A stretch of 64,000 nt of DNA from Eubacterium sp. (lineage in GTDB: Bacteria > Bacillota > Clostridia > Lachnospirales > Lachnospiraceae), in the NCBI GenBank assembly GCA_017938215.1, contig JAGBBZ010000023.1, positions 161,561 through 225,560 on the forward strand, given 5' to 3'. Within the stretch, counting starts at the first letter, position 1, and each line of letters begins with the position of its first letter. The position numbers and the translations under genes were made by a program. Shown here one piece after another: positions 27,209 to 52,635 of the stretch. The notes under the pieces are model-generated. The model was not told where the DNA came from, did no database searches, and saw nothing but the letters and a program-made list of their open reading frames with translations.

Positions 27209-29143
27209 TTAAGAATGTTGATTTAAATCTTCTAGTCGCTCTTTCACGGTTCCGGAAATGCCTTTTACCACATCGGCTTCTGCTAACACTTCTTGGGTGC
27301 TGGCGGCCAAATTGGTTAGTCGGTCGTTAATGTCCGCAATGGAGTGAGTTAGTTCCTCCGTTTCGGACATGAGAATGCGGATTCCTTCTACGATTTCCGT
27401 GCGGTTTCGATTGCTTTGTTCTGCCATGGTGCGACTGGCTTCTGCCAAATCCTTGACTTCATCTGCTACCACAGCAAATCCTTTTCCGGCATCCCCGCTG
27501 CGAGCTGCTTCCACTGTGGCATTCAGTGATACAATTTTCGTTTGATTTGCAATTTTCTCAATATTTTCATTGTTTTTCTCTAATTTATCCAGCAACCCTT
27601 GAATGTCTCGGAACGACGTTTCTAATATGCCACAAAAATCAGATGTTTTCATCATTGTGGAACTGATGGCGCTGCTTTCTTCTGCGTTGACGGCATTGCC
27701 TTGTAACATGCCATCGATGGAGAGATTTAAGGTTTCAAAGTCTTCTGCGATAAAATGGGACATTTCCTCGTTCTTTCGAAGGATTCTACGATTTTGTTCT
27801 TCCAGTTGCAATGAGAATTCCTGCACTTCATTTTTTATGTAATGAATACAGTTAGTAGGGGTATTGCAACCGTTGAAGATTGCTGATGCCATTTCAGAAC
27901 AATTGTTATAGCCACAAGCACCGCAGTTAATACTTCGTTCGTCCGGAGTATGTTTTTTCATTTGGTTGAAGACAGAATCTAATTCACTGGCATGTGGCAT
28001 TCGCATCGAAATGGAAGCGGATTTGTCTGTATATGTACGCATGAAGTCTTCGATGTTTAATGAGGCAAATCTTCGATTCAAGCACCAGAGACGTTGCTTT
28101 GGTGACAAAATTTTGGAAAAAGGGTGAAATGCTTGGTTTTTCTTGCTTCTTGCTTTGATTTCTTCAATGTTATAGTAATTATCTTCCGAGGAACTTTTGG
28201 ATTCTTCGATGCCGGTTCCGTAAAGACAGCCACGTTCGCAATTCAAAATATCTACCATGAAAGGGAGTTTGTCATTTCGCTGAATTCGTTTTTGGTAATC
28301 TTTTAAAAATTCATAGGCGCGCTTTTCGCCTTCTACTTGTCGGATGGCAACATCTTCACCACAAAACCAATACACATTTTCTTTCAAACCACCTGGCATT
28401 GGATAAATGGAACCAAGACCATAGGAAACCTCATCCTTTGTGGGAGTGCCATAGATGTTATGAGTTCGTACGTATTCCATTAAATGGTCAAAAGTGAGAT
28501 TATAGGAGACATACCCTTTTGTGTTTGGGTCTGTGATTTCTGTCTTTTTCGCGATACAAGGACTGACAAAAGCCAGCTTATCGGTAATTTTCATATATTT
28601 TTTGGCATAGATTGCCGTGCACATCATCGGACTATGAATCGGCACTAATTTTCGGATTAATGCAGGTGCGTAATGCTCGATATAGTTGACAACGGCCGGA
28701 CATGGCTGGGAGATACCGCCTTTGAAATGATTTTTGGTAATGTAATTAATGTATGCCCAGGTGGTAATGTCGGCGCCAAAACTTACACTGAGGATGTGAT
28801 TGACCCCAAGTTTTTTTAAGCCACCTAAAACGCGATGGTATTGATCGGGGTAATTGGCTTCAAATGCAGGAGCTAAAATAATAGAAATTCGTTCGCCTTG
28901 TCTAAGGTCGTTGAAAAATTGTTCGGTGTCATCATAAAAACTTCTTGCCTTGTGTTCGCAAGCATCAAAGCAAGATCCGCAACTGATGCAATTTTCGCTG
29001 TGCACCTCGATGCGTTGGTTATGCGAATGTCCGTCTGTTACCGAATAGTTGGCGGTGAGAACGGGACAAACAGAGATGCATCGATTGCATCCCTGACATT
29101 TTTCATTGGTATATACCAATGTGTTCGTTGTGATTTGATTCAT
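27209..29143 (-). CDS. chemoreceptor with [FeFe]-hydrogenase-like sensor domain
   Basis: 644 residues, no signal peptide or membrane helix, so cytoplasmic. Two 4Fe-4S clusters ([25 protein letters not shown]) lead into a [FeFe]-hydrogenase large-subunit-like domain. Its L2 (SPCIAKKTE) and L3 ([11 protein letters not shown]) motifs are kept, but L1 reads SQPCPAV instead of TSCCP, so the proton-relay Cys is lost. A FeS domain follows ([10 protein letters not shown] near 415), then a methyl-accepting signalling domain (about 510-640) with the tip [25 protein letters not shown]. It is probably a redox or hydrogen sensor rather than a turnover enzyme. It is divergent from the chemosensory operon and could feed its CheA/CheW. 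Confidence 0.85.
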
Positions 29144-30796: not shown

Positions 30797-31867
30797 ATGA
30801 AGGATAATCAATCACCAAAGAAGTGGAAAATTCTCATCATCGATGACGTAGAAGCAAATCGATTTGCGTTGCGAGATATCATACAGGAAATGGGGTATCA
30901 ACCCATTTTAGCGGAGCATGGCAAGCAAGCCCTAAAGGTTGTTGCTAGGATGCGACCAGAATTAATTATTTCAGATATTTCGATGCCGGAGATGGATGGT
31001 TATGAATTTTGTGAAACGATAAAGAAAGATGCGGAATTACGGGATATTCCGATTATATTTATTTCTGCATTTGACAATCCGGAAGATATTATGAAAGGGT
31101 TTAATGTAGGAGGAGAAGATTACATAACGAAGCCATTTATTCCGGAAGTGGTAAAGGCTCGTGTGATATTGCATTTGAGACTGTATGACGCGACGCAGGA
31201 TCTTCAGGAAACCAATCGGCAGTTGCAGACATTGGTGACGCAACAAGTAAAACAATTAGAATTGGAAAAAAAGAACGTTCTTTATGCGCTGACCCGTGTA
31301 GCAAGGGAAAATGCTTGTTACGATGAGAGGCACATGGAGAGACTTTGTTATAATTGCCGGATCATGGCAGAGGCGATGCAATTGTCAAAGAAGTATGATC
31401 ACATCGTTTCGGACAGTTTTGTAGAAACCATTGAGTTGGCAGCGCCACTGTGTGACTTGGGGAATGTGGCGATACCTACAAATATTTTGCAGAAGAAGGA
31501 CTCTTTGTCGGAAGCGGAGGCTAAGGTGATGCAGACTCATGCCATGGCAGGAACGCGCATTTTGCAGGACGTGTTGGATGTGGGGGACTACAATGATTTT
31601 ATTCAGATGTCTATGGATATCGCTCATTATCATCATGAGAATTGGGACGGTTCCGGATATCCGGAGGGGGTAAAGGGAGAGGATATACCTTTGCCGGCAC
31701 AGATTATGGCGGTGGTGAGTGTGTTTTGTGCACTGACGGAGACGCGAGTATATCGTGATTCCTATGACACAGAGGCGGCATTGGAAATTATGGAAAAGGA
31801 TTCGGGGATAAAGTTTAACCCGGCATTGTTTGATATATTGAAAAAAATTCATCGACAGTTGCGATAG
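30797..31867 (+). CDS. response regulator with degenerate HD-GYP-like domain
   Basis: 356 residues. Receiver at 10-130 with the phospho-acceptor in ISDISMPEMDG (D60) and YITKPF. A coiled linker leads to an HD-GYP-like output domain with THAMAGTRIL, HHENWDGSGYPEG and ALTETRVYRD. Key metal positions differ: the HD dyad reads CD (C219-D220), the lysine after it is Asn (LGN), and the usual VFDAL is VFCAL (C311). Cyclic-di-GMP phosphodiesterase activity is therefore doubtful and a binding or scaffold role is possible. The gene overlaps nothing and starts 12 bp behind the kinase. Confidence 0.85.
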   Translation: MKDNQSPKKWKILIIDDVEANRFALRDIIQEMGYQPILAEHGKQALKVVARMRPELIISDISMPEMDGYEFCETIKKDAELRDIPIIFISAFDNPEDIMKGFNVGGEDYITKPFIPEVVKARVILHLRLYDATQDLQETNRQLQTLVTQQVKQLELEKKNVLYALTRVARENACYDERHMERLCYNCRIMAEAMQLSKKYDHIVSDSFVETIELAAPLCDLGNVAIPTNILQKKDSLSEAEAKVMQTHAMAGTRILQDVLDVGDYNDFIQMSMDIAHYHHENWDGSGYPEGVKGEDIPLPAQIMAVVSVFCALTETRVYRDSYDTEAALEIMEKDSGIKFNPALFDILKKIHRQLR

Positions 31868-31905
31868 TGATTGTGCTAAGATGGAGGCAGGATGGTGAGA
31901 TTCCG

Positions 31906-32712
31906 ATGATGACAGAAGTTGAATTTTATCAGATAGCCACCTTTCTAAAAGACCGATATGGCATTGATATGAGTGCGAAAAAGGAAATTATGAATGGTAG
32001 ATTGGAAAACTATCTGAGAGCGGGGAGATGGAAGGATTATACGGAGTATTTTCGAGCGGTACAACAGGATGAAACAGGGGAATTGGAAAAGGAATTGGTA
32101 AATCTTCTAACGACCAATCACACCTATTTTATGAGGGAGTTTGAGCATTTTGATTTTTTGCGGGAGGAAGTTCTTCCATGGCTTCGGCAGAAGGAATCCA
32201 GAAATCGCGATTTGTGTATATGGTGTGGAGCGTCTTCCACAGGGGAGGAACCCTATACATTGGCGATGTTGATGTTGGATTTTTTTGGACTAGAACACGA
32301 TTCTTGGGATACGAAGGTATTGGCAACGGATATTTCTACGGAAGTATTACAGCAGGCCTTGAGCGGAATATATCGAAAAGAACAGGTGATGGATCTGCCC
32401 GGTAATTGGCGTCGAAGATTTTTTCGTGAATTACGGGATGGACAACAAGTGCAAGTGACGGAAGAAGTGAAAAAGGAAGTTATCTTCCGACAATTTAATC
32501 TTATGGATCCCTTTCCTTTTCGACGAAAAATGCATATCGTATTTTTGCGAAATGTAATGATTTATTTTGACCAGGATACTAAGAGGGAATTGGTTCAGAA
32601 AGTGTATGATGCAATGGAACCAGGCGGATATTTGTTTGTGGGAAGAACCGAGACGATAGACCGGGGGGAGACACCGTTTCAGATGATCCAACCGTCTATT
32701 TTCCGAAAATAG
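31906..32712 (+). CDS. cheR: chemotaxis protein methyltransferase CheR
   Basis: 268 residues from ATG 31906, which has GGTGAG 6 nt upstream; the frame starts earlier at GTG 31867 without support. CheR methylates glutamates of chemoreceptors using SAM. Seen are the N-terminal helical domain, LLTTNHTYFMRE, the SAM-binding WCGASSTGEEPYTLAM (usual form WSAGCSTGEEPY), VLATDIS, and FLRNVMIYFD near the C-terminus. It is followed 13 bp later by cheB, so the adaptation pair is complete. Confidence 0.93.
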   Translation: MMTEVEFYQIATFLKDRYGIDMSAKKEIMNGRLENYLRAGRWKDYTEYFRAVQQDETGELEKELVNLLTTNHTYFMREFEHFDFLREEVLPWLRQKESRNRDLCIWCGASSTGEEPYTLAMLMLDFFGLEHDSWDTKVLATDISTEVLQQALSGIYRKEQVMDLPGNWRRRFFRELRDGQQVQVTEEVKKEVIFRQFNLMDPFPFRRKMHIVFLRNVMIYFDQDTKRELVQKVYDAMEPGGYLFVGRTETIDRGETPFQMIQPSIFRK

Positions 32713-32725
32713 GGGAGAAAAAAGT

Positions 32726-33757
32726 ATGGCAAAAATACGCGTTTTGGTAGTGGAAGATTCCATGGTGTTTCGGAGACTTCTGGTAGAAGCACTAAACCGG
32801 GATCCTGACATTGAAGTGGTGGCCGTGGCAGAAGATCCGTTTCAAGCACGGGATGCCATTATTGAATGTCAACCGGATGTTATGACTTTGGATGTAGAAC
32901 TTCCCCGTATGAGCGGGATTGAATTCTTAAGAAAATTAATGCCCCAGTATCCATTGGCTACCGTAGTGATTAGCGCACTCAGTGATAAAGTGTTTGATGC
33001 ATTACAGGCGGGAGCGGTGGATTTTGTGGAGAAACCGGCGATGACGCAGAAAGCCCAGCTGGAACAGTTTATGAATCGAGATTTACCGATTATGGTGAAG
33101 GCGGCATCCATGGCAAAGCTCGACCAATTAAGAAGAAAACACACAGAAATTGTGGCCGGTTCGTTGGCGCAGAGGCAGAAAAAAGATGTGGTGATTGCCA
33201 TTGGAGCATCTACCGGCGGTACCGAGGCGACAGCGGAAGTGCTTCGGGAATTTGGAACAGATATTCCGGGGATTGTGGTGGTGCAGCATATGCCAACCGG
33301 TTTTACAAAGATGTACGCAGAACGACTGAATCGCTCATGTCGTGTGGAAGTAAAAGAAGCAAAAACCGGAGACGTGATTCAGCCGGGACGAGTGTTGATT
33401 GCTCCGGGAGGGGAGGAGCACCTAAAGGTGGTTCGAGTGGGAGAGAATTATCAAGTGGTGTGCCGACGGGGAGATAAGGTCAGTGGACATTGTCCTTCGG
33501 TGGATGTCCTATTCCAATCGGTGGCAGAAACGGCAGAAAAAAATGCAATCGGTATTTTGCTCACTGGTATGGGAAGCGATGGGGCGCAAGGGCTATTGAA
33601 AATGAGACAACATGGAGCTCGGACGATCGCTCAGGATGAAAGCAGTTGCATTGTTTACGGTATGCCGAAGGTGGCATACGAATTGGGAGCAGTGCAATAT
33701 CAAGAAAAAATATCGGATGTTGCAAGACGGACGTATCAGATATTAAATTCAATGTGA
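32726..33757 (+). CDS. cheB: chemotaxis response regulator methylesterase CheB
   Basis: 343 residues. Receiver with VVEDSMVFRRLL and D56 in MTLDVELPRMSG. The linker leads to the methylesterase with the catalytic serine in GASTGGTEA, histidine in VVQHMPTGFT and aspartate in LTGMGSDGAQG. It removes methyl groups from receptor glutamates after phosphorylation by CheA. Length is normal for the family. The next gene starts 14 bp later. Confidence 0.95.
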   Translation: MAKIRVLVVEDSMVFRRLLVEALNRDPDIEVVAVAEDPFQARDAIIECQPDVMTLDVELPRMSGIEFLRKLMPQYPLATVVISALSDKVFDALQAGAVDFVEKPAMTQKAQLEQFMNRDLPIMVKAASMAKLDQLRRKHTEIVAGSLAQRQKKDVVIAIGASTGGTEATAEVLREFGTDIPGIVVVQHMPTGFTKMYAERLNRSCRVEVKEAKTGDVIQPGRVLIAPGGEEHLKVVRVGENYQVVCRRGDKVSGHCPSVDVLFQSVAETAEKNAIGILLTGMGSDGAQGLLKMRQHGARTIAQDESSCIVYGMPKVAYELGAVQYQEKISDVARRTYQILNSM

Positions 33758-33771
33758 AGGAGTGAAAAAGT

Positions 33772-34164
33772 ATGAGAATATTATTAGCAGAGGATGATTT
33801 TGTTACAAGAAAATTTATGACGAGTTTCCTGTCCAAATACGGAAGTTGTGATGTTACGGTAGATGGGATGGAAGCGGTGGATGCTTTTTTGATGGCATTG
33901 GAGGATGAGGAACCATATGATCTTGTGTGTCTGGATATCATGATGCCAGTTATGGATGGATATCAGGCGTTGCAGGGGATTCGAAATCTGGAAAAAGAAC
34001 GTGATATACCGGCGGATAAAGCAGCGAAGGTGATTATGGCAACGGCATTGAATGATGAAAGCAATGTGAAGATGGCGTTTGATCTTGGCTGTACGATTTA
34101 CACTGGAAAACCAATCGATCAGGAGCGTTTTGAGATGGCTTTGAAGAAATTGGGGATTGCGTAG
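33772..34164 (+). CDS. cheY: CheY-like response regulator
   Basis: 130 residues, single receiver domain. Acidic pocket EDD (7-9), phospho-acceptor D55 in CLDIMMPVMDG, switch Thr in MATAL and Lys in GKPID. There is no output domain, so it acts by binding a target, classically the flagellar switch. No flagellar genes are in the window, so its target could be elsewhere or one of the neighbouring kinases. It is preceded by GGAG and ends 14 bp before cheA. Confidence 0.9.
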   Translation: MRILLAEDDFVTRKFMTSFLSKYGSCDVTVDGMEAVDAFLMALEDEEPYDLVCLDIMMPVMDGYQALQGIRNLEKERDIPADKAAKVIMATALNDESNVKMAFDLGCTIYTGKPIDQERFEMALKKLGIA

Positions 34165-34178
34165 AAAGGAGTAGATGG

Positions 34179-36359
34179 ATGGCAGAAGAATTTAATTTGG
34201 ACGGCATGTTAGAGGTCTATCTCTACGAAAACAATCAGCTATTGGAACGTCTTCAGGAAATCGTGTTGGAACAAAAAGATGAAGCGTGTTTCGACGAAGA
34301 CAGCATCAATGAGATTTTTCGTACCATGCATACCATCAAAGGTTCTTCGGGCGTGATGATGTTTGATGAGGTGACGAAAATCTCTCACAAGTTGGAGGAT
34401 GTGTTTTATTATCTGCGTGAATCTCAACCGAAGAATGTTCCGCATTTGGAACTGGTAGAGCATGTATTGACAGTGTCTGATTTTATTTCAGCAGAGATGG
34501 AAAAACTGGAAAATGGCGGCGCGGCAGACGGAGATGCCACTGCAATTTACAAAGAAGTGGACAAGTTCTTGACAAAGATTCAAAGCGATGATGCAGATGC
34601 AGAAGAAGTGATCAAGGAGAATGTTCATGAGGAACCACAGCAGTTTTACATTGCGCCGATGGCAAGCAGTGCCAGCAAGTTTTATAAAATTTATCTTACA
34701 TACAAAGAGGGAACACAGCTGGCAAATATTCATGCGTATAAGGTTGTATACGACCTGAAAGAAATTGCAGAAGATCTTCTGTATACGCCGGAAGACATCA
34801 TTACCAATGAGAAAAGTGCAGATGTGATCATGGATCAGGGATTTTTAATGCTTTTGCAGACGCAAAGTAGTGAGGAAGATCTCCGAAAGATCATCAAAGA
34901 AGGGTATGAATTAGAAAAAGTAGAAATCGTACCTTGTACAGCACAAGAATTTCAACAGGGATTTGATAGTGTTGGTTCGGAAATTCGTATCGATTTGGAG
35001 TCCAGTGTGGAAGAAATCGAGAAACGGGCAGAAGAGGCAGAATTGGCAAAGGCAGAAGAGAGCGAAGCGAAACCGGAGCAAAAAACAGAGGTGAAGCCAA
35101 AACCAATGGCACCTGGAGATTTTGTAATTCAGTCCAAGGAGCCTGGAAAAGCGAAAAAGCTTGCCAAGGATAAACCGAAGAAATCGGAAAAAGCTTCCTT
35201 TATCAGTGTGGATGTCCGGAAGATGGATATGCTGATGGATCTCATCGGCGAGTTAGTAATTTCCGAATCCGTTGTTTTGCAGAATCAGGATTTGAAGGTG
35301 CCGGGATTGAAGCTGGATAACTTCAATAAAGCTGCGGGACAGATGAGAAAAATTTCGTCAGATCTTCAGAATGTAATCATGAGCATGCGAATGGTACCAT
35401 TGACCAATACATTCCAGAAAATGAATCGTATTGTGTTTGATGTGTCTCGTAAGTTGGGAAAAGATATCGAGTTTGAGATGATCGGCGAGACTACAGAAGT
35501 AGATAAAAATATTATTGAGCATATTTCGGATCCGTTGATGCATCTTGTGAGAAATGCAGTTGATCATGGTATTGAAACACAAGAAGAGCGAGAAGCCAGT
35601 GGAAAGACGGAAAAAGGTCGTGTTACATTGTCGGCAAAAACAGAGTCTGGAAAGGTTTGGATCGGTGTGCAGGACAATGGAGCCGGGTTGAATCGCGATA
35701 AGATTGTGGCGAAGGCGAAGAAGCAGGGAATCATTGATCCATACAAACCGGACAGTGAATATACAGATAAGGAAGTGTACCAGTTTATTACCCTTCCCGG
35801 ATTTTCTACGAATGAACAAGTAACCGAATATTCGGGACGAGGAGTCGGAATGGACGTGGTGGTGTCCAACCTGCAATCCATCGGGGGTTCCTTGGAAATT
35901 GAAAGTGAGCCGGGACAAGGTAGTATTATGTATCTGAAAATACCACTGACTTTGGCAATTATCGATGGAATCGTGATGGAGGCGGGAGATACTACATTTG
36001 TAGTAGAAACCGGAATTGTAAAAGAATTCATCGGAATTCGGGAAAATACGATTATTACAAAGCCAAACGGCGAAGAGTTTGTTATGATTCGTGGCGAAGG
36101 GTATCCGGTTCTTCGTCTTAGTGATTGGTATCATCTTGGAAAGAACGAAAATGCCAATGAAGAGGAAGCGATGATCGTCATGGTGGAAATGGAGGGCGAG
36201 GTTCTTTGCATCCTCGTAGATCGCTTGATTGGCAAACAGGAAATCGTGGTAAAACCAATTCCGGATTATATCAAAAAGGTAAAAGGATTATCAGGATGTA
36301 CCCAGTTAGGAGACGGAAGCATTGCATTGATTCTGGACGTAGCTGGATTAATTGAATAA
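34179..36359 (+). CDS. cheA: chemotaxis histidine kinase CheA
   Basis: 726 residues. P1 phosphotransfer domain with MHTIKGSSG (H51); a middle region (about 155-275) that may be the P2 response-regulator docking part; an Ala/Glu/Lys-rich linker; P3 dimer helices with LVISESVVLQN; the P4 ATPase with HLVRNAVDHGIE, GVQDNGAGLN and TEYSGRGVGMDVV; and a CheW-like P5 domain at about 590-725. It transfers phosphate to CheY and CheB under control of receptors. It is central to the cluster; the soluble hydrogenase-like receptor and the membrane receptor encoded nearby are likely inputs. Confidence 0.95.
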   Translation: MAEEFNLDGMLEVYLYENNQLLERLQEIVLEQKDEACFDEDSINEIFRTMHTIKGSSGVMMFDEVTKISHKLEDVFYYLRESQPKNVPHLELVEHVLTVSDFISAEMEKLENGGAADGDATAIYKEVDKFLTKIQSDDADAEEVIKENVHEEPQQFYIAPMASSASKFYKIYLTYKEGTQLANIHAYKVVYDLKEIAEDLLYTPEDIITNEKSADVIMDQGFLMLLQTQSSEEDLRKIIKEGYELEKVEIVPCTAQEFQQGFDSVGSEIRIDLESSVEEIEKRAEEAELAKAEESEAKPEQKTEVKPKPMAPGDFVIQSKEPGKAKKLAKDKPKKSEKASFISVDVRKMDMLMDLIGELVISESVVLQNQDLKVPGLKLDNFNKAAGQMRKISSDLQNVIMSMRMVPLTNTFQKMNRIVFDVSRKLGKDIEFEMIGETTEVDKNIIEHISDPLMHLVRNAVDHGIETQEEREASGKTEKGRVTLSAKTESGKVWIGVQDNGAGLNRDKIVAKAKKQGIIDPYKPDSEYTDKEVYQFITLPGFSTNEQVTEYSGRGVGMDVVVSNLQSIGGSLEIESEPGQGSIMYLKIPLTLAIIDGIVMEAGDTTFVVETGIVKEFIGIRENTIITKPNGEEFVMIRGEGYPVLRLSDWYHLGKNENANEEEAMIVMVEMEGEVLCILVDRLIGKQEIVVKPIPDYIKKVKGLSGCTQLGDGSIALILDVAGLIE

Positions 36360-36383
36360 ATATTGAGAAAGGAAAAGGCGCAT

Positions 36384-36905
36384 ATGAGTGAACAACAGGA
36401 CAATTTAAGTTTAAAAGAGAAGTATGTAACTTTTATGTCCGGAAAAGAGTATTTTGGCTTGAAGATTGAATATGTCAATGAAATCATCGTTTTGCAGGAT
36501 ATCACAGCAATTCCTGAGAGTGAAGATTACATCAAAGGGCTTATTAACCTTCGAGGAAAGATTATACCGGTCATAGATGTTCGGCTTCGTTTCAAGCAAG
36601 AACCAATTGAATACAACGATCGTACATGTATTATCGTAATCAATGTACAGTCAACCGTGGTGGGATTGATTGTGGAAAAAATCGCAGAGGTCGTAGAGAT
36701 TCCAGAGGAAAATCTATTACCATCACCATCCATTGGTCACAATGAAAAGAAAAAGACCAAGGAGCGGTATGTATACGCAATCGGTAAAGTGGGAGACACG
36801 GTGAAGCTTTTGCTGGATCCGGACAAGTTAATTAGTGACGAAGATTTGTCAATGATGGAACAGGCAAGTGAAGAAGCACAAGAGTTACAAGAGATAGAAG
36901 AATAA
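36384..36905 (+). CDS. cheW: chemotaxis coupling protein CheW
   Basis: 173 residues from ATG 36384, with GAAAGGAAAAGG upstream (TTG 36363 has no site). SH3-like CheW fold: [36 protein letters not shown], with a Glu-rich acidic tail. It links receptors to CheA in the signalling array. It lies between cheA and the chemoreceptor gene, 14 bp before the latter. Confidence 0.93.
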
Positions 36906-36919
36906 GGAGGACGAAGAGT

Positions 36920-38275
36920 ATGGAATGGAATAAGAATATGAAGATACAGACGAAAGTTAGTATTGGTTTTGCAATTTTAGAGCTTGTTATTTTGTTTATT
37001 ATGGTTCATGGATTTCAAACAGTATCCAAGATGGTAGGAGCGACAGATCCGGAAGTGATTAAAGCGGATTACCGAAATGTAATGTTTGCAATGTTTATCC
37101 TTGTGATCATGCTTATGGTGGGACTTTCTGTGGGGATTTTAGGAAAAATGCGCAAATCTTTCCGTCAGTTGTCGGAAGTGGCAGAGAAATTAGCGCTGGG
37201 TGAGATTGATGAGATTACGATCGTGAAAGATGGCAATGATGAGTTTGGCATGTTGGCAGGAGATGTTCAGCAGGTGGTTGACTCTATGAAGGAGCAGTCT
37301 CATTTGGCAGAAGAGATGGCGACAGGAAATATGATGGTTGACATCCGTCCAAGATCGGATCGAGATGTTTTGGGAAATGCGTTGAAAAAATTAGTGGAGG
37401 GAAATCGTGAATCCATTCGAAGCATCAGTGAGTCTACTTTCCAGGTGTCCACAAGTGCTTCGGAAGTGGCAAGTGCCAGCGAGGCATTGGCGCAGGGATC
37501 TACCGAGCAGGCAAGTGCCATTGAGGAGATTACCGCTTCCATTACCGATATTGCAGGAAAGACAAGAAAAAATGCAGACGAGGCAAATGAAGCATCTAGT
37601 CTGGTGGCAAATGCAATCGTAGATGTGAAACGAGGCAATGAGCAAATGAGAGAGATGATGCATGCCATGGAAGACATTAACGAATCTTCGGAAAGCATTT
37701 CTAAGATTATCAAAGTAATTGATGACATTGCTTTCCAAACCAACATTCTCGCGTTGAATGCGGCAGTGGAAGCAGCGAGAGCAGGGGAAGCTGGAAAGGG
37801 ATTTGCTGTGGTTGCAGAAGAAGTTCGTAATCTGGCAGCAAAGAGTGCGGCAGCAGCAGCGGAGACGGCAGAGCTTATCGAAGATTCCATTCGAAAAGTA
37901 GAAGTTGGTTCTGGCATTGCAGGAAACACTGCGAAGGCGTTGGAAGAAATAACGACAGCTGTAGAAAAAACGGAGTCCATCATCAATGGCATTGCGGATG
38001 CATCCAATTATCAAGCGACAGCGATCGAGCAGGTGGATCAGGCAATTATTCAGGTATCTCAGGTGGTACAGAATAACTCTGCAACCAGTGAGCAATGTGC
38101 AGCAGCAAGTATCGAGTTGTCCAATCAGGCTAGCTACATGAGGGACTTGCTTTCCGCATATAACGTGGGAGAATCCTATCGTTACCAGGCATCTAATGCC
38201 ACAAGAAATTATGCAAGCAAGGCAGACCGCAATGAGCAGATCATCTCATTGAAGGACGGATTTGGAAAATATTAA
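36920..38275 (+). CDS. methyl-accepting chemotaxis protein, minimal external loop
   Basis: 451 residues. Two membrane helices (about 14-31 and 52-74) are only about 20 residues apart, so there is no extracytoplasmic ligand domain. A HAMP-like segment follows, then a long helical signalling domain with the conserved tip [31 protein letters not shown]. Signals must be sensed in the membrane, by the HAMP region, or through another protein such as one of the membrane kinases next door. GGAGG precedes ATG 36920. Confidence 0.9.
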
Positions 38276-38368: not shown

Positions 38369-41161
38369 GTGGAATTTTTAAAATACAATGAGGAAACGCA
38401 AGAGAAATATGAAAAATTAACATTGTTTCTCTTTTCTTTATATAGTAGCGGAATGGCGGTTCTTAGCGCGATACAGGGTTGGGAAATATGGTTGGTAGTT
38501 TTGATTTTGTTAATGATGGTGATGGGATGGGGCGTGTATGTGTTTCATGCGCGTAATTACCCATTTCGTGCTAGTGTAGTAGCGATTGGAGCACACATTA
38601 GTGTTACACTATATGCGTGTCATGTGGACAATCTGTTTCCGATTTTAATGATTGTGGTAGCCTTGGGGATCATCATGGCGCTTTATGTCATACCGGAATT
38701 GATGTGGATCAATGTATTGACCACGGTAGTTCTGATTTTTTATCATATTGTTGTGATTGAAACGATTCAAGCTAAGAATTTGTTGAGTTCCGGAAACTCG
38801 ATTTTTTTCATTTTTAATGTATTTTTGATGCAGTATCTCATTTATTTTTGGGTGAAAAAGAGACAAGAAGGGAATCGGGAATTTTTACGACTGAGCATGG
38901 CATTGGCAGATGCTGAGCGAAGCAAACACGATTTTCTGGCAAATGTAAGTCACGAGATTCGTACTCCGGTAAATACCATATGTGGAATGAGCGAATTGGC
39001 GCAGGAAGAGGATAATATTAAAAAAATGCAGGAAGCAATGTTTGATATTCAATCCGCAGGGCGTAACCTTCTTTCGGTAGTAAGTGACGTGCTGGATTTT
39101 TCGGAATTGCAGTCTGGAAAAATGGAGCTGGAGGAGGAAGAATATAATATTTCTTCAACCATTAATGACATCATTAATATGACGATGGCGCGTAAAAATC
39201 AGAAAAATCTTGAGCTTGTGGTGGATTGTAATGCGGATCTTCCAGCTTGTTTGATGGGAGATGAAAAGAAGATTCGTCGTGTGATTATGAATATTGTTAA
39301 TAATGCCATCAAATTCACCAATGAAGGTGGTGTATGCATCGGCCTTGACTTTCGACGAGAGTCCTATGGAATTAACTTGATTGTGACAGTTAAGGATACC
39401 GGAATCGGCATGTTGGAAGAAAATATCGAGAAATTATTTTCCAGCTTCAATCAGGTGGACACCAAACGAAATCGCCAGGAGGGTGGTATTGGCCTGGGAC
39501 TTGCAATTTCTCAGGCGTTGGTGGAAAAGATGGGTGGTGTGCTGAACATCCGAAGTAAGCTGGGAAAGGGGACGACAGTTCGTATTGTAATTCCGCAGAA
39601 GGTTGTGGAGGATCGTCCGATCGCAAGACTGGAACATACAGAAAATCTGCATATGGCAACTTACATTGACATGGAGCAATTTCGGATGCGATCCATTCGT
39701 GATGCCTATAGTGCCAGTGTATTTCGGATGGCTGCCGCAATGCAGGTTCGCACGCAAAATTGTCGAAATCTCGCAGATTTAAAACGAAAAGAGAGCAAGG
39801 AAACATTTACACACATTATTACAAGCATTGCGGAGTATCAGCAGGATCCGGCGTATTTTGATGAAGTGGCAAAGCGGACCAATGTGGTGGTTATTCTGGA
39901 ACGGGAAGAGGAACGGAAGCTAACCAATCCGGACATTGTTCGCCTGTACAAACCATTTTACATTTTGTCCATTATGCAAGTGCTGAAGCGAGGAAATGTG
40001 GAGCGTGAGTCGTTACGAATGACGCACCAGCGAAAGTTTATCGCTCCGGATGTGAAAGTGCTTGTGGTGGATGACAATGCGATGAATATCCGTGTAATGG
40101 AAGGGCTATTGAAACGGTATCAGATTGCGGTGACGAGAGCCACGAGTGGACATGAGGCACTGAAACTCATCGAATCCCGGGATTATGACTTTGTATTTAT
40201 GGATCATATGATGCCGGAAATGGATGGTGTGGAGACGTTCCACCGAATTCGTAGTAAACATGGCATATACTATCGTGAAGTGCCGATTGTAGCTTTGACG
40301 GCAGATGCAGTGGCAGGTAGCCGCGAACGATTCTTGGAGGAAGGATTTGACGACTTTGTGGAAAAACCGGTGGAATTGTCTGTGCTGGAGCGTGTTTTGC
40401 TTCGTATCGTGAGTCCTACCAAGATTAAGTATATTGAAGAAGAGCAAGAGGAACGGCTGGCGGAGGAAGTCAGTAAGGAACTGCCACAAGAGGAAACTCG
40501 CTTTGCGGTAGGTGATTTGGATGTGGAAAAGGGATTGACGTATTGTGGTGATCAGGAGAAATATCTGGAAGCATTGGCAGAGAGTTTTGTGACAGCAGGA
40601 CGAGATCAAGGAGAGATTTCTCGATGTTTCGCAGAGCAGCAGTGGAAGGATTATACCATTAAAGTTCATGCGCTAAAAAGCGGTATGTTGAGTATCGGTG
40701 CAGTGGCGCTTTCCGAACAGGCAAAGGCATTGGAAGCGGCAGGGCGCAATGAAGATATCCCATATATCAAAGCAAATCATGAAGCGTTGATGGAGCAGTG
40801 GAATCGTGTAATCGAAATGATCGGAAAAGACCCACAGGTGCCGGTGGAAGAGGCGAAAGAGCGTCTGGGAATCGTTGGAGAAGAGGAGGCGCAAGGTGGC
40901 GAAGATGAGTTGGGAGAAAAGGAAGTGGCGGATGATACAATGTGGGAACAGTGGATGATCCAGTTGGAAGATGCCACATTTTCCTTAGATGACGAGAAAA
41001 TGCTTCTTTTGTTAAAGGAAATGCAGGGATATTCTTACTTGGGTAAATCATTGGAACAACCATTGAAACCAGCGATTCGCAAGGTGGAGATGAGTGATCT
41101 GATTTCGGCGTATGAATCGGTATCCGGGATGCGAGAACAGTGGCAGAAGGGAGGCGAGTGA
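38369..41161 (+). CDS. membrane hybrid histidine kinase with receivers and HPt
   Basis: 930 residues; GTG 38369, 5 nt after GGAGGGG. Five to six membrane helices (about 18-165) form the input part. HisKA (FLANVSHEIRTPVN, H195) and HATPase_c (NNAIKFTNEGG, DTGIGM, GGIGLGLAIS) follow. A degenerate receiver-like segment (about 415-545) lacks a clear acidic pocket. A good receiver has D612 in FMDHMMPEMDG, and an HPt domain has H767 in KVHALKSGMLSIG. A complete phosphorelay is thus in one chain. It ends in an acidic tail. Its stop overlaps the start of the next kinase by one base, so both are co-translated. Confidence 0.88.
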   Translation: MEFLKYNEETQEKYEKLTLFLFSLYSSGMAVLSAIQGWEIWLVVLILLMMVMGWGVYVFHARNYPFRASVVAIGAHISVTLYACHVDNLFPILMIVVALGIIMALYVIPELMWINVLTTVVLIFYHIVVIETIQAKNLLSSGNSIFFIFNVFLMQYLIYFWVKKRQEGNREFLRLSMALADAERSKHDFLANVSHEIRTPVNTICGMSELAQEEDNIKKMQEAMFDIQSAGRNLLSVVSDVLDFSELQSGKMELEEEEYNISSTINDIINMTMARKNQKNLELVVDCNADLPACLMGDEKKIRRVIMNIVNNAIKFTNEGGVCIGLDFRRESYGINLIVTVKDTGIGMLEENIEKLFSSFNQVDTKRNRQEGGIGLGLAISQALVEKMGGVLNIRSKLGKGTTVRIVIPQKVVEDRPIARLEHTENLHMATYIDMEQFRMRSIRDAYSASVFRMAAAMQVRTQNCRNLADLKRKESKETFTHIITSIAEYQQDPAYFDEVAKRTNVVVILEREEERKLTNPDIVRLYKPFYILSIMQVLKRGNVERESLRMTHQRKFIAPDVKVLVVDDNAMNIRVMEGLLKRYQIAVTRATSGHEALKLIESRDYDFVFMDHMMPEMDGVETFHRIRSKHGIYYREVPIVALTADAVAGSRERFLEEGFDDFVEKPVELSVLERVLLRIVSPTKIKYIEEEQEERLAEEVSKELPQEETRFAVGDLDVEKGLTYCGDQEKYLEALAESFVTAGRDQGEISRCFAEQQWKDYTIKVHALKSGMLSIGAVALSEQAKALEAAGRNEDIPYIKANHEALMEQWNRVIEMIGKDPQVPVEEAKERLGIVGEEEAQGGEDELGEKEVADDTMWEQWMIQLEDATFSLDDEKMLLLLKEMQGYSYLGKSLEQPLKPAIRKVEMSDLISAYESVSGMREQWQKGGE

Positions 41162-43854
41162 TGATGTTGAAAAAGTTGTATTATAAGATGTTTGGTCAAG
41201 AACTGGGGCTGCAAGAGCGCGTGTTTCGCGTGATTTTGATCGTGGGTAGTATCGCCTGTGTAGTAGGGAATGTGGAATCCACGGTACTCATTGGAGAATA
41301 CAATGTCCCTCTTTTGATTCTTATGATGGCGATGATCGTGTCTTTGGTGGCAACCTTCAAATATCGTCAGGTGAATTTTGCGGCAACGCTGCTGGGAATA
41401 TTTCTCCTTGTGATTGTTTTTCCGGAAATGTTTTTCTGTAGTGGCGGAATCCGAGGTGGTGCTACAATCTGGCTTTCCTTGGGGTTTGTGTATGTTTTCC
41501 TGATGTTTCGGGGAAAGCAATTGGCGTTTTTTCTCGTATTGACGGTGGTGGTGGATGTGTGGACATACATGAGTGGTTACTATCGGCCGGAAGTGATAAC
41601 GGCATTGAATTGTGAGGCGGATGTGTATTTTGATTCATTTTTCTCACTAATTGCGGTAGGAGTCATCAGTGGATTGATTTTGAAATATCAGAGTCGTACG
41701 TTTGAGCGAGAACGAGTCCTTACTTCAAGTCAGAAAAATGATTTGGAACAGATCACGAAATCAAAAAATGCCTTTTTTGCCAATATGAGTCATGAAATTC
41801 GCACGCCCATCAACTCCATTATCGGTTGGAATGAGATGATTCTCCGCGAGGCACCCGATGGGGATATTCCGGAGTATGCGGAAAATGTGCAAAATGCCAG
41901 CGAGATGCTATTGAATCTCGTCAATGACATCATGGATTTGTCACAGCTGGAAATTAAGAAAATGGAGATTGTCTCCGCAGAATATAATGTAAAGAAAGTA
42001 ATTCAAGACCTAGTGAACATGATCCAGATTCGAGTCAAAGAAAAAAATCTGGAAATGAAGGTGGAAATCGACGAAACTATGCCATCGTATCTTTTTGGAG
42101 ATGAAAAGAGAATGAAACAGATTATCTTAAATCTGTTGACCAATGCAGTGAAATACACCGATAAGGGATTTGTAAGTCTGTCGGTGTCGGCAGAACGAGT
42201 GGCAGGCATCGCTGAATTGAAAATCACGGTGGCAGATTCCGGAATTGGTATCCGAAAAGAAGATGTGGAGTCCCTATACGATGTATTTCGTCGAGTGGAT
42301 GCCCGTAGAAATATGACGGTGGAAGGCAGTGGACTGGGTCTCGCCATTGTAAAGCAACTTTTGGATCTCATGGGTGGCGAAATCAGTGTAGATAGTATAT
42401 ACACGAAAGGAACGGTATTTACAGTGACAATGTCACAGCCGATCATTGATGATACTCCGATTGGCGAAGTGGATTTCAGCACTGGTGGAAAGAAGCAAAG
42501 CGGACGTCAGTACCAGCAGAGTTTCGAGGCACCAGAAGCAAGAATCCTGGTGGTGGATGATCATATGATGAATGCATGGATCATCTCGAAACTTTTGAGT
42601 TCTACCAAAGTGCAAGTGGATCTTGCTTACAGTGGAGCAGAATGTCTGGAGCGTACACAGCAGAAATTCTATCATGTCATTTTGATGGATCATCAAATGC
42701 CGGGAATGGATGGCATTGAAACCTTGAAGGAACTTCGTAAGCAGGAAAATGGACTTTGCCGAGATAGTCATGTGGTATTGGTGACGGCAAGTTCTGAGGG
42801 GGAAGCAAGGGGAGTGTATCGAGGAAATCGCTTCGATGGCTTTATTGAAAAACCGGTTAAGGGTGAGAAGCTGGAGATAGAATTGCTTCGCCTTTTGCCT
42901 GAGGAAATCATTGAATATCGTGCGACGTCTTCGGAAAGCGATGACACGTCGATTCAGAGACTTTCGGGCAAAAAGAAAAAGAATATTATGATTTCTACAG
43001 ATAGTGTGGCGGATCTTCCGGAAGATTTGTTGGAAAAATATGATATCAAAGTGGCGCATTTGTATATTAAGACGGACAAAGGACGTTACGAAGATGGATT
43101 GGAAATTGATTCGGATAGTTTGGCGTTGTATCTGCTGGATTCGAACAATTCCGCAGTGCCGGATAGCATATCAATGGAGGAATATGAGCAATTCTTTGCC
43201 GAAGCGCTGATGGAAGCGGATGAGATTATTCACATTACGGTGGCGGAAGGTGTAGGTGTTAGTTATCCGACCGCTGTGGCTGCGGCGAGAGGATTTGACC
43301 ATGTGCACTTGGTGGATTCTGAGCAGATTTCCGGTGGTCAAGGGTTGCTTGTTCTCTATGCGGCAGATCTTGTTATGAAAGGGTATGAGGTAAGTGAAAT
43401 TTTGCCAAGGCTAGAAAAGATGCGAAAGAATATTGAATTCTATTTTATCCTTCCATCATTACGAACGTTTCACCAAAACGGTCGCATCGGTTATGGTTTG
43501 ATGCGCGTGTGTGAAGCGTTGGAATTGCACCTTGTGATGCGAGTTCGGAGTAAACGAATATCCATCGTAGGGGTACGATTGGGAAATATCAACACATCCC
43601 GCAGAAAATTTCTTAGGAAAACATTGCGAAGCAAACGAAAAATCCACAATCGAGTGGTGTATTTTACCTATGTAGGGTGTAACGTAAAACAGCTAAATGC
43701 GATGCGATTGGAGTTGACGAAAAATATTTCTTTCCAAAATGTAATCATGCAAAAGGCTTCCGGTTCTATCGCATGCAATGGTGGAATGGGAACTGTGGGA
43801 GTGGCATATCTGAGGAAAGTGGATGAAAAATCCCTTTTGGAGAGCGAAGATTAG
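41161..43854 (+). CDS. membrane hybrid histidine kinase fused to DegV domain
   Basis: 897 residues from ATG 41161, 6 nt after AAGGGAGG. Five to six membrane helices (about 20-175), HisKA (FANMSHEIRTPINS, H211), HATPase_c (NLLTNAVKYTDKG, DSGIGI, GSGLGLAIVKQ) and a receiver (VVDDHMMN; D510 in LMDHQMPGMDG). A Lys-rich linker follows, then residues about 606-895 form a full DegV-type fatty-acid-binding domain: MISTDSVADLPEDLLEKY, VPDSISMEEYEQFF, VDSEQISGGQGLLVLYAA, LRTFHQNGRIG, IACNGGMGTVGVAYL. The frame is continuous. DegV proteins bind fatty acids, so the kinase may sense or handle acyl chains (inference). Confidence 0.88.
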   Translation: MMLKKLYYKMFGQELGLQERVFRVILIVGSIACVVGNVESTVLIGEYNVPLLILMMAMIVSLVATFKYRQVNFAATLLGIFLLVIVFPEMFFCSGGIRGGATIWLSLGFVYVFLMFRGKQLAFFLVLTVVVDVWTYMSGYYRPEVITALNCEADVYFDSFFSLIAVGVISGLILKYQSRTFERERVLTSSQKNDLEQITKSKNAFFANMSHEIRTPINSIIGWNEMILREAPDGDIPEYAENVQNASEMLLNLVNDIMDLSQLEIKKMEIVSAEYNVKKVIQDLVNMIQIRVKEKNLEMKVEIDETMPSYLFGDEKRMKQIILNLLTNAVKYTDKGFVSLSVSAERVAGIAELKITVADSGIGIRKEDVESLYDVFRRVDARRNMTVEGSGLGLAIVKQLLDLMGGEISVDSIYTKGTVFTVTMSQPIIDDTPIGEVDFSTGGKKQSGRQYQQSFEAPEARILVVDDHMMNAWIISKLLSSTKVQVDLAYSGAECLERTQQKFYHVILMDHQMPGMDGIETLKELRKQENGLCRDSHVVLVTASSEGEARGVYRGNRFDGFIEKPVKGEKLEIELLRLLPEEIIEYRATSSESDDTSIQRLSGKKKKNIMISTDSVADLPEDLLEKYDIKVAHLYIKTDKGRYEDGLEIDSDSLALYLLDSNNSAVPDSISMEEYEQFFAEALMEADEIIHITVAEGVGVSYPTAVAAARGFDHVHLVDSEQISGGQGLLVLYAADLVMKGYEVSEILPRLEKMRKNIEFYFILPSLRTFHQNGRIGYGLMRVCEALELHLVMRVRSKRISIVGVRLGNINTSRRKFLRKTLRSKRKIHNRVVYFTYVGCNVKQLNAMRLELTKNISFQNVIMQKASGSIACNGGMGTVGVAYLRKVDEKSLLESED

Positions 43855-44034: not shown

Positions 44035-45327
44035 ATGAAACAGGACATGATTGTAATTCTAGACCTGGGAAGTACAGAGAACACAGTAGTTGCCAGACAG
44101 ATTCGTGACATGGGAGTATACAGTGAGATTCACCCACATGACATCACACCGGCAGAGCTGAATGCATTGGAGAACGTAAAAGGAATTATTTTGAATGGTG
44201 GAGAAAACCGTGTCGTAGACGGTGTAGCAGTAGATGTGGATCCAGCTATCTATGAATGTGGTTATCCAGTAATGGCCATCGACCATCCAACAGCAAAATG
44301 TCAGCAGCAGTTATCCGAATTGCCAGACGAAGCAACACTGAAAGCGTTCGTATTTGATGAATGTAAGTCCGAGGCAAACTGGAATATGAAGAACTTCATC
44401 GCAGACCAGGTTGAGTTGGTGCGTCGCCAAGTAGGAGATAAAAAAGTGCTTTTGGCATTGTCTGGCGGAGTGGATTCTTCCGTTGTGGCAGCATTGCTTT
44501 TGAAAGCCATTGGGCAGCAGTTGGTATGCGTACACGTAAACCACGGCCTTATGCGTAAAAATGAGTCAGAAAGTGTAGTGGAAGTATTCCGTAACCAGTT
44601 GAATGCGAACTTGGTATATGTGGATGCCACAGATCGTTTCCTTGGCAAGTTGGAAAATGTGGCAGATCCAGAAGAAAAGAGAAAAATCATCGGCGGTGAA
44701 TTTATCCGTGTATTTGAAGAAGAAGCAAGAAAATTGGAAGGCATCGACTTCCTTGGACAGGGAACCATCTATCCGGATATTATTGAGAGTGGTACAAAGA
44801 CAGCAAAATGCGTAAAATCCCATCACAATGTAGGTGGACTTCCAGAGGACTTGCAGTTTGATTTGGTAGAGCCTTTGGCACAGTTATTCAAAGACGAAGT
44901 ACGTGCTTGCGGTATCGAGCTTGGTCTTCCAGAGAGCATGGTTTATCGTCAGCCATTCCCAGGTCCTGGACTTGGTGTGCGTTGTCTCGGAGCTATCACT
45001 CGTGATCGCTTGGAAGCGCTTCGTGAGTCCGACGCCATTCTCCGTGACGAGTTTGCAAAAGCTGGTTTGGATAAGAAAGTTTGGCAGTACTTCACTGTAG
45101 TGCCTGACTTCAAAGCAGTTGGTGTGCGTGACAATGCACGTAGCATGGGATACATGGTGGTAATCCGTGCGGTGAACACCATCGATGCCATGACTGCCAG
45201 CATTGAGCGAATTGATTACGATATTTTGGAAAAGATCGCAGATCGAATCACGGCAGAAGTGCCAAGTGTAAATCGTGTGTGCTATGAGCTGACGAAGAAG
45301 CCGGTAGCAACGATTGAGTTTGAGTAG
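44035..45327 (+). CDS. GMP synthase-like protein with degenerate glutaminase domain
   Basis: 430 residues, against about 510-525 for GuaA. AAAGGAG precedes the ATG. The ATP-pyrophosphatase domain is intact (LALSGGVDSSVVAALL, HVNHGLMRK) and so is the dimer domain ([12 protein letters not shown], ends ATIEFE). The N-terminal class I amidotransferase domain is cut short: after VPV-like YPVMAIDHP about 80-90 residues are absent, including the catalytic Cys of GxCYG and the later His and Glu. It cannot hydrolyse glutamine itself. It may use free ammonia or a separate glutaminase. A second guaA ends at position 763. It has its own promoter and terminator and looks expressed, not decayed. Confidence 0.9.
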   Translation: MKQDMIVILDLGSTENTVVARQIRDMGVYSEIHPHDITPAELNALENVKGIILNGGENRVVDGVAVDVDPAIYECGYPVMAIDHPTAKCQQQLSELPDEATLKAFVFDECKSEANWNMKNFIADQVELVRRQVGDKKVLLALSGGVDSSVVAALLLKAIGQQLVCVHVNHGLMRKNESESVVEVFRNQLNANLVYVDATDRFLGKLENVADPEEKRKIIGGEFIRVFEEEARKLEGIDFLGQGTIYPDIIESGTKTAKCVKSHHNVGGLPEDLQFDLVEPLAQLFKDEVRACGIELGLPESMVYRQPFPGPGLGVRCLGAITRDRLEALRESDAILRDEFAKAGLDKKVWQYFTVVPDFKAVGVRDNARSMGYMVVIRAVNTIDAMTASIERIDYDILEKIADRITAEVPSVNRVCYELTKKPVATIEFE

Positions 45328-50752: not shown

Positions 50753-50862
50753 GTTTTGGAGAAAAAATACAAAACAAGGAGGAAATGCCTTTGCTCGCAA
50801 GGGCGGCTCGCATGATGGCTCGCGCAGAGAGACATTTTCTTCGAAAAACAAGGAGGCATAAT

Positions 50863-52635
50863 ATGACAGCGAATGAATTGAGAACCATGTATGTAAACTT
50901 TTTTAAAGAAAGAGGGCATCGGGAAATTGCGTCAGCATCGCTGCTCCCAGAGAACGATCCGACGGTTCTGTTTACCACCGCGGGGATGCATCCGTTGGTG
51001 CCGTATTTGCTGGGGGAAAAGCATCCCAGTGGCAATCGTTTGACCGATGTACAGAAGTGTGTTCGAACGGATGACATCGATGAGGTGGGAGATGATACCC
51101 ATCTAACATTCTTTGAGATGCTGGGAAACTGGTCGCTGGGCGACTATTTTAAAGAGGAATCCATCTCCATGAGCTTTGAATTTTTAACAAAACACTTGAA
51201 TATCCCGGTGGAGCGGCTGGCAGTGACGGTGTTTGCAGGAGATGAAATGGTACCGGCAGACGTGGAGGCAGAGACAAAGTGGAAGAGCTTGGGATTGAAA
51301 TCGGAGCAGATTTTTCGGTACGGAAGAGAGGAAAATTGGTGGGGACCACCGGGACAGACCGGACCTTGCGGACCGGATACGGAGATTTTCTACGACATGG
51401 GTCAGCCAAAATGTGGGACGGATTGTGGACCGGCATGTACCTGCGGAAAATATGTTGAGATTTGGAACAATGTATTTATGCAGTTTAAGAAAGAATCCGA
51501 TGGGACATTTACGGAGTTGAAGCAGAAAAATGTGGACACCGGAATGGGCTTGGAACGTATTTTGACGATTTTTAATGGTAAAACCAATGTGTATGAAACG
51601 GAGTTGTTTGTGCCAGTTATGACGAAGCTGGAAGAACTTGTGGGGAGTTCTGAAATGAGCATGTCGGAAACGGACAAGAGGATCATCTGCGAGCACATCC
51701 GAGCTACTACATTTATCTTGGGCGATCCGAAAAAAATCGCTCCGTCAAACACCGAGCAGGGCTACATTTTGAGACGATTTATCCGCCGAATGATTCGTCT
51801 GTTCAAGAAAACAGGCATCCATGAGAATTGTCTGTGTGAGCTTTCGAAGGTCATCATTGACCAGTACAAGGAGGTGTATCCAGAGCTTGGAGAAAATGAG
51901 GAATTTATATTGGAGCAGCTACAGAAGGAATACACGCTATTTGCAAAGACGCTGGACGATGGACTGAAGAAGGCAAACCGATACCTGCAAAACGTGGGGA
52001 AATGCGGAGTTTTGAGTGGCGACCTTGCATTCAAATTATATGACACCTATGGCTTCCCTATCGAGTTTACAATGGAAATGGCACAGGAAAAAGGACTGCA
52101 GGTGGACTTGGATGGGTTCCAAAAGAAGTTTGAAGAACATCGCAATAAATCCAGACAAGGAGCAGCAGGGAAATTTGCCGGTGGATTGGCAGATAATAGC
52201 GAGCGGACTGCACGACTTCATACCGCAACACACCTGTTAAATGGGGCATTGCGAAGCATCCTTGGAGATGAAATAGCCCAGCGTGGAAGTAATATTACGT
52301 CGGAACGCTTGCGATTTGACTTCTCCTTTGGACGAAAAGTGACGAAGGAAGAACTGAGTCAAGTGGAGGCAATGGTAAACGAAGCAATCGCAAATAAAGT
52401 GGACGTGATTATGGAAGAGATGACACCGGAACAAGCTTACGAAAGTGGCGCAATCGGAGTGTTCACAGGGAAATACGGTGAGATTGTAAAGGTGTATACG
52501 ATTCCGGGGTATTCGAAAGAAATTTGTGGTGGTCCTCATGCTGCAAATACTGGGGAATTGGTGGCTTTCCGTATTTTGAAAGAGGAGGCTTCGTCGGCCG
52601 GAGTGCGGAGAATTAAGGCCGTGATCGAAGGATAG
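50863..52635 (+). CDS. alaS: alanyl-tRNA synthetase, short form without C-Ala
   Basis: 590 residues, against about 870-880 for normal AlaRS. ATG 50863 is 6 nt after AAGGAGG; an in-frame upstream ATG (50785) has its ribosome site only 2 nt away. The aminoacylation core ([45 protein letters not shown]) and the editing domain ([24 protein letters not shown]) are present. The chain stops right after the editing domain, so the linker and the C-Ala tRNA-elbow/dimer domain are missing. The T-box with a GCA specifier supports alanine specificity. It may be a second, stress- or drug-tolerant synthetase, or the only one; the window cannot tell. Confidence 0.88.

Follow-up and report, generated by a model that had tools for sequence, protein, structure and literature searches.

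We identified a membrane hybrid histidine kinase that continues behind its receiver, in one reading frame, into a full-length DegV domain (hereafter HK2-DegV). It lies in a 64,000-nucleotide stretch of genomic DNA (the window), the same domain order recurs across the bacterial family of the host, and the gene is almost always preceded by that of a second hybrid kinase (HK1). The DegV domain is predicted to keep the fold of the fatty acid carrier FakB, while most residues that serve FakB in its dealings with FakA are changed in it and in its fused relatives. We see an even chance that HK1 and HK2-DegV form a two-kinase phosphorelay sharing one histidine phosphotransfer (Hpt) domain, with DegV as a ligand-binding regulatory domain that makes no hand-over to FakA.

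Domain architecture of HK2-DegV

The sequence-only reading of this DNA had described an unbroken chain from membrane helices through kinase and receiver to DegV. This was borne out by a single open reading frame (ORF) in which Pfam recovered HisKA, HATPase_c, Response_reg, and DegV (Table 1), in agreement with NCBIfam. The DegV domain scored 132.7 bits against Pfam PF02645 (cutoff, 27; profile positions 2 to 279 of 280) and 153.2 bits against NCBIfam TIGR00762 (cutoff, 99.7), which places it in the DegV family by full-length profile matches above the curated cutoffs as well as by predicted fold. The residues of a hybrid kinase (HisKA His, HATPase N and G boxes, and receiver Asp, Thr/Ser, and Lys) are all present. 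In the alignment of relatives, the HisKA His and the N, G1, and G2 boxes occur in all 45 rows with sequence there, and the two receiver Asp residues and the Lys in 46 of 46 rows; the receiver Thr is kept in 45 rows and replaced by Ser in one. No Pfam sensor domain was matched in the membrane region (residues 17 to 175). The start ATG overlaps the HK1 stop codon by one base.

The AlphaFold2 training set includes public structures of the DegV/FakB fold. Structure prediction, which the sequence-only reading had proposed as a check, modeled the DegV domain with the whole FakB fold; the best of the five models, and only that one, passed a pLDDT of 80, using an alignment of 5 rows that included three DegV relatives from viral contigs taken for this purpose only.

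TABLE 1 Features of the kinase pair and its upstream region (window positions)
Feature	Position	Strand	Remarks
Candidate response regulator, receiver plus HD domain, GYP motif	30797..31867	+	HD motif degenerate (CDLGN, from translation)
Chemosensory genes upstream of the kinase pair	31867..38275	+	CheY, CheA, CheW, and MCP by Pfam; CheR and CheB from translations
HK1, membrane hybrid kinase, 930 aa	38369..41161	+	HisKA, HATPase, receiver, C-terminal Hpt-like region
Hpt region of HK1, residues 728-797	40550..40759	+	19.5 bits, below the Pfam cutoff of 24.6
His767 in the HALKS motif of HK1	40667-40669	+	
GGAGG ahead of ATG 41161	41150..41154	+	Ribosome-binding-site-like, by eye
HK2-DegV, membrane hybrid histidine kinase-receiver-DegV, 897 aa	41161..43854	+	Unbroken ORF
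Membrane region of HK2-DegV, residues 17-175	41209..41685	+	Several hydrophobic helices
HisKA, residues 202-264	41764..41952	+	Pfam
Phospho-acceptor His211	41791-41793	+	Kept in 45/45 rows with sequence at the site
HATPase_c, residues 313-425	42097..42435	+	Pfam; N and G boxes intact
Receiver (Response_reg), residues 462-572	42544..42876	+	Pfam
Receiver phospho-acceptor Asp510	42688-42690	+	Kept in 46/46 rows
Receiver-DegV linker, residues 573-608	42877..42984	+	35-43 residues in 46/46 aligned rows
DegV domain, residues 609-885	42985..43815	+	Full length, predicted FakB fold
Arg775, equivalent of FakB1 Arg173	43483..43485	+	Retained
Leu807, in place of FakB1 Arg205 (FakA/membrane docking)	43579..43581	+	Arg one position earlier
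Asn873, in place of FakB1 His270 (carboxylate network)	43777..43779	+	

Distribution and origin of the fusion

When 200 genomes from 199 genera of the same family were searched with the whole protein, the stretch from kinase through DegV was found in at least 33, the window's own genome included, and part of it in 2. The resulting 35 fusion-bearing genomes are a lower bound, since four candidates were scored per genome and some of the other 165 may carry the fusion. Full-length matches from other genomes were 34 to 51% identical, and within the genus at least 15 of 21 genomes, again counting the window's own, gave a full or nearly full match. Loci of 46 relatives were fetched, of which 45 passed the filter (L077 failed; L070, L075, and L076 were read only in part); the search for proteins of the same domain order that the sequence-only reading had suggested thus found kinase, receiver, and DegV in this order in 45 relatives.

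A profile of the fused DegV domain was run against 398 genomes of the phylum. Among the matches listed, the only frames of at least 700 residues were those in G000, G444, and G180, which all belong to the family of the HK2-DegV host, and the other places were of stand-alone length (<400 residues), G268 excepted. This exception, with a 580-residue frame and a 469-residue ORF, was considered as a fusion outside the family and rejected because Pfam sees DegV alone. Scans of a genome-contig collection and a plasmid collection gave, respectively, one distant stand-alone DegV and 8 records of 24 to 28% identity that are annotated as DegV family protein or unannotated. Other DegV domains are perhaps parts of multidomain proteins: G045:C4:16049-16891 and G056:C16:48963-49796 have open frames that run to 601 and 620 residues, and the 469-residue ORF at L121 8820-10226 (minus strand) has about 190 residues without a Pfam match ahead of its DegV domain.

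In a quick IQ-TREE reconstruction of 98 DegV sequences, the 47 fused domains were all placed on one side of a branch with SH-aLRT support of 100, and the fused or stand-alone state changed once on the tree versus a mean of 33 changes after shuffling. FastTree gave the fused group a support of only 0.631, and these two values make up its support. Because all 47 fused domains fall on one side of this branch, the fusion of kinase and DegV probably arose once. In the FastTree tree, the fused domains stand next to a group of stand-alone DegVs that have the motif HCGPNTLG. Most of the stand-alone DegVs closest to the fused domains (L109 to L126 except L123) carry this motif or a near-variant, and the four of them that were scanned have varied neighbors (glycosyltransferase 8, radical SAM, and CmpB-type transporter).

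Judged from codon changes, the DegV part is under purifying selection that is weaker than on the kinase: in five close pairs, pN was 0.13 to 0.22 and pS 0.69 to 0.79 (near saturation) for the DegV part, with pN of 0.04 to 0.13 for the kinase part. The lower mean pairwise identity of the DegV domain among 42 sequences (0.37, versus 0.59 for the kinase and 0.55 for the receiver) is what an artifactual or decaying fusion might look like, an explanation that we give almost no credence, as it is already contradicted by the 45 relatives with the same order, by the single group in the tree, and by the selection on DegV.

HK1 and the three placements of the Hpt domain

The fusion has a constant neighbor that the sequence-only reading did not mention, another hybrid kinase encoded immediately upstream. 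A homologue of HK1 occupies this position on the same strand in 43 of the 45 relatives, 40 of them recognized by homologue search and 3 (L031, L050, and L075) in the neighborhood table; the other two loci, L052 and L076, have 581 and 45 bases to the contig end. The two genes mostly overlap or are separated by fewer than 100 bases, the spacing being 311 in L051, which has a partial frame, and in several loci (L031, L051, and L058) the HK1 frame is incomplete or split. Because the genes for HK1 and HK2-DegV overlap, their translation is probably coupled.

For 45 pairs, those of 43 relatives plus the window and L123, an Hpt was located, and its placement is of three kinds. It lies with its His on HK1 in 35 pairs, and on HK2 behind DegV in 7, whose HK1 is 676 to 695 residues long and lacks an Hpt. 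These Hpts behind DegV were confirmed by Pfam in the four proteins scanned (L062, L066, L071, and L123) and recognized by motif only in the other three. The last 3 pairs (L059, L060, and L075) have an adjacent receiver-Hpt gene together with an Hpt region on HK1 that is missing the His. The most economical interpretation is a single relay served by both kinases, and the three placements amount to natural evidence on which kinases work together. A motif search covering the 45 relatives also found an extra small Hpt-like ORF, L063 2639-3097 (plus strand), some 5 kb ahead of the HK2-DegV gene, although HK1 of this locus already has an Hpt.

Departure of the fused DegV domains from FakB

We focused on the residues by which FakB1 binds fatty acid and meets FakA. 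The available text of PMC8892158 gives Thr62, Ser95, and His270 (also Ser171) as the carboxylate hydrogen-bond network of FakB1; in that of PMC9136124, Arg173 is required for phosphorylation by FakA, and both sources, as far as available, have Arg205 docking on FakA and the membrane. The 47 fused domains were compared with 29 stand-alone DegVs, taken from the best-scoring loci (29 of 30 gave a long ORF) and hence biased to canonical ones, and with 19 "closest" stand-alone DegVs (18 in the IQ-TREE group), mostly chosen for their likeness to the fused profile. FakB1 was represented by the F263T mutant chain of PDB 6nyu, with position 263 left uncounted; Ser171, which is Gly in all 48 stand-alone rows, was excluded from the network test.

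The equivalent of Arg205 is Arg in 2 of the 47 fused domains, versus 28/29 stand-alone and 19/19 closest stand-alone DegVs. An Arg stands one position ahead of the lost residue in 9/47 fused domains and three positions ahead in 9/47, so that some of the docking charge may be retained. The His270 equivalent is kept in a single fused domain (1/47; 26/29 stand-alone and 19/19 closest) and is Asn in 42/47. HK2-DegV itself has Pro at Thr62, with a Ser nearby, and Gly at Ser95, both alignments being unsure, and the Thr62/Ser95/His270 network was not found in it. Arg173 has an equivalent in 22/47 fused domains versus 29/29 stand-alone ones, and Ser95 in 24 to 25 of the 47. At most three of the five canonical FakB residues are retained in any fused domain (47/47), and 17 of the 19 closest stand-alone DegVs retain all five. 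Close in sequence to the lost His270, Gly272 is present in 47/47 and Gly274 in 41/47 fused domains, and the fused domains share conserved patches unlike FakB (QKAS..NCGPG and EYE.FFA..L..A).

The window's own genome encodes a FakA-like protein of 552 residues; in its assembly (68% complete), no DegV besides the fused one and no PlsX were found. FakA was detected in 34 of the 35 fusion-bearing genomes tested. The exception, G180 (the genome of L075; given as 100% complete), has no detectable FakA and no DegV besides the fused one; its fused gene contains a run of N between membrane part and kinase, across which full integrity is not readable. This single exception argues against a need for FakA.

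The sequence-only reading had further proposed that the DegV domain holds a fatty acid for a kinase that makes acyl phosphate. The loss of Arg205 in 45/47 fused domains and the change of His270 to Asn in 42/47 speak against this claim, as does the persistence of the fusion in G180 without detectable FakA. We class HK2-DegV as a variant of the hybrid kinases and not as a member of FakB. We rejected, on the residue losses and G180, as our main reading a working FakB on a leash, which would present fatty acid to FakA and channel acyl phosphate into lipid synthesis or to the receiver. The predicted FakB fold, the co-occurrence with FakA here and in nearly all fusion-bearing genomes, the retained Arg173 equivalent, and the position of the fused domain as the only DegV found in its incomplete assembly would suit such a carrier, but with the His270 and Arg205 equivalents gone here and in nearly all relatives, FakA undetectable in G180, and S. 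aureus FakA/FakB failing to phosphorylate SaeS or SaeR in the available text of PMC5539427, we regard it as very unlikely.

Another reading makes DegV the output, receiver phosphorylation governing its pick-up or release of fatty acid and thereby altering lipid metabolism. DegV does stand directly behind the receiver, where an output domain would usually be expected, and FakA is encoded in the same genome. This reading is nonetheless unlikely, given the docking Arg lost in 45/47, the 7 loci with a further Hpt behind DegV, and the retention of the fusion in G180 without detectable FakA.

Chemosensory surroundings and output

The assignment of the fusion to a chemosensory operon by the sequence-only reading is true of the window, where che genes and the gene of a kinase that weakly matches PAS lie upstream of the pair and guaA lies downstream, but it does not hold in general. 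A che cluster lies upstream in 8 of 45 relatives besides the window (some loci having short upstream DNA), and constant linkage to cheA, cheW, and MCP genes was not found. FliG was matched in 30/35 fusion-bearing genomes versus 80/165 others (p = 5.5e-5, a value in which genome kinship overstates independence) and gave no match in G026, G053, G089, G120, and G174 (76% complete). The HK2-DegV system is thus enriched in flagellated members, and because five fusion-bearing genomes have no FliG match, it is not tied to flagella. A general role as a pure chemotaxis component was rejected on the che linkage in 8/45 and these five of 35 genomes.

Nor is the output constant: of the 46 loci searched, only 14 have a receiver-HD-GYP gene as the immediate upstream neighbor of HK1. 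The HD motif is intact in 14/14 of these genes and the GYP motif in 13/14 (variant in L065). CDLGN replaces the HD motif in the window gene, which lies further upstream of HK1, and in the che-linked L035 and L037.

Four other proteins of the window deserve mention. The MCP of the che cluster, at 36920-38275 (plus strand), has hydrophobic segments at residues 9 to 36 and 49 to 78 with a very short stretch between them and no ligand-binding domain by Pfam. Near the cluster, a 644-residue protein at 27209-29143 (minus strand) combines 4Fe-4S ferredoxin, iron-only hydrogenase large-subunit, and MCP signaling domains and is possibly a redox- or hydrogen-sensing chemoreceptor. The GMP synthase at 44035-45327 (plus strand; 430 residues) matches glutaminase only weakly and in part (22.8 bits, residues 7 to 82) and is perhaps ammonia dependent. 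A short alanyl-tRNA synthetase-like protein (50785-52635, plus strand; 616 residues) has only the catalytic and SAD domains by Pfam.

Proposed mechanism

In the preferred reading, HK1 and HK2-DegV would share the single Hpt, carried in the window by HK1, and phosphate would pass from HisKA to receiver, Hpt, and response regulator; in the window, candidates for this end point are the receiver-HD protein and a Che receiver. The DegV domain would descend from a FakB-type carrier, captured once and stripped of the parts that hand fatty acid to FakA. We infer that it acts as an input and binds a ligand: it is most likely a cytoplasmic regulatory domain near the membrane, whose pocket would hold a lipid or other small ligand and which would bias the balance of kinase and phosphatase activities via the short linker behind the receiver. 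Against this reading, pocket residues differ among the fused domains (Arg173 in 22/47, Ser95 in 24 to 25 of 47), a pattern that would follow if the family had no shared ligand or did without one altogether.

The main rival to ligand regulation is that DegV is a ligand-free structural or docking module, joining HK1 to HK2 or the receiver to the Hpt while its FakB pocket decays. We take this to be possible rather than probable. It would account for the loss of key FakB residues throughout the fused domains, the consistent pairing with HK1, the short linker of near-constant length, and the conserved patches unlike FakB, but it sits less well with the predicted retention of the whole FakB fold and of Gly272 and Gly274 beside the lost His270, and pure docking would presumably not require an entire two-lobed domain.

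Should ligand regulation by DegV be correct, a wider and more tentative picture, doubtful as a whole, would be that a fatty acid carrier was captured once, cut off from activation, and turned into an intracellular sensor of lipids or acyl metabolites on one of two membrane kinases, which through their single movable Hpt would link the lipid state of the membrane to motility or HD-GYP outputs in a large bacterial family.

Comparison with known systems

The claim that this combination of domains was not known agrees with the literature: among the matches listed, no paper on DegV, PF02645, or FakB in connection with kinases or chemotaxis, and none on DegV in Roseburia/Lachnospiraceae, describes the HK2-DegV architecture. 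The available text of four papers naming PF02645 (PMC12288450, PMC3146951, PMC2880560, and PMC2954198) contains no kinase fusion, that of PMC12288450 stating without more detail that DegV is also found inside multidomain proteins; separate DegV/FakB genes are the topic of PMC12688256 and PMC10146087, as far as their available text goes. Databases may well list the architecture automatically.

HK2-DegV resembles hybrid kinases of the BarA/TorS/ArcB type in its HisKA, HATPase, and receiver with intact residues, and its best NCBIfam matches are of this type, far below the equivalog cutoffs. It differs in having a C-terminal DegV domain instead of, or ahead of, an Hpt, which its neighbor kinase usually bears. 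From the FakB/DegV proteins (PF02645, TIGR00762; S. aureus FakB1) it differs as part of a hybrid kinase in which His270 has become Asn, Arg205 is lost, Thr62 and Ser95 are not aligned to the same residues, and partnership with FakA is not supported. A regulatory role is known for DhaQ. The titles of PDB entries 2iu4 and 2iu6 describe it as a DhaK-like co-activator of the dha operon, that is, a related fold in regulation.

For fatty acids acting on a membrane kinase, S. aureus SaeRS is a precedent: according to the available text of PMC5539427, which mentions no fused DegV domain, cellular fatty acids, which build up when FakA is missing, inhibit SaeS by a mechanism left open among membrane anchor, bilayer charge, and accessory proteins. 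DegV/FakB proteins are known as carriers that supply fatty acids to membrane synthesis; here, the DegV fold, its FakA-facing residues changed, is part of a two-component protein that many genera retain, and if it binds a ligand, it would provide a direct and testable link between lipid state and bacterial signaling.
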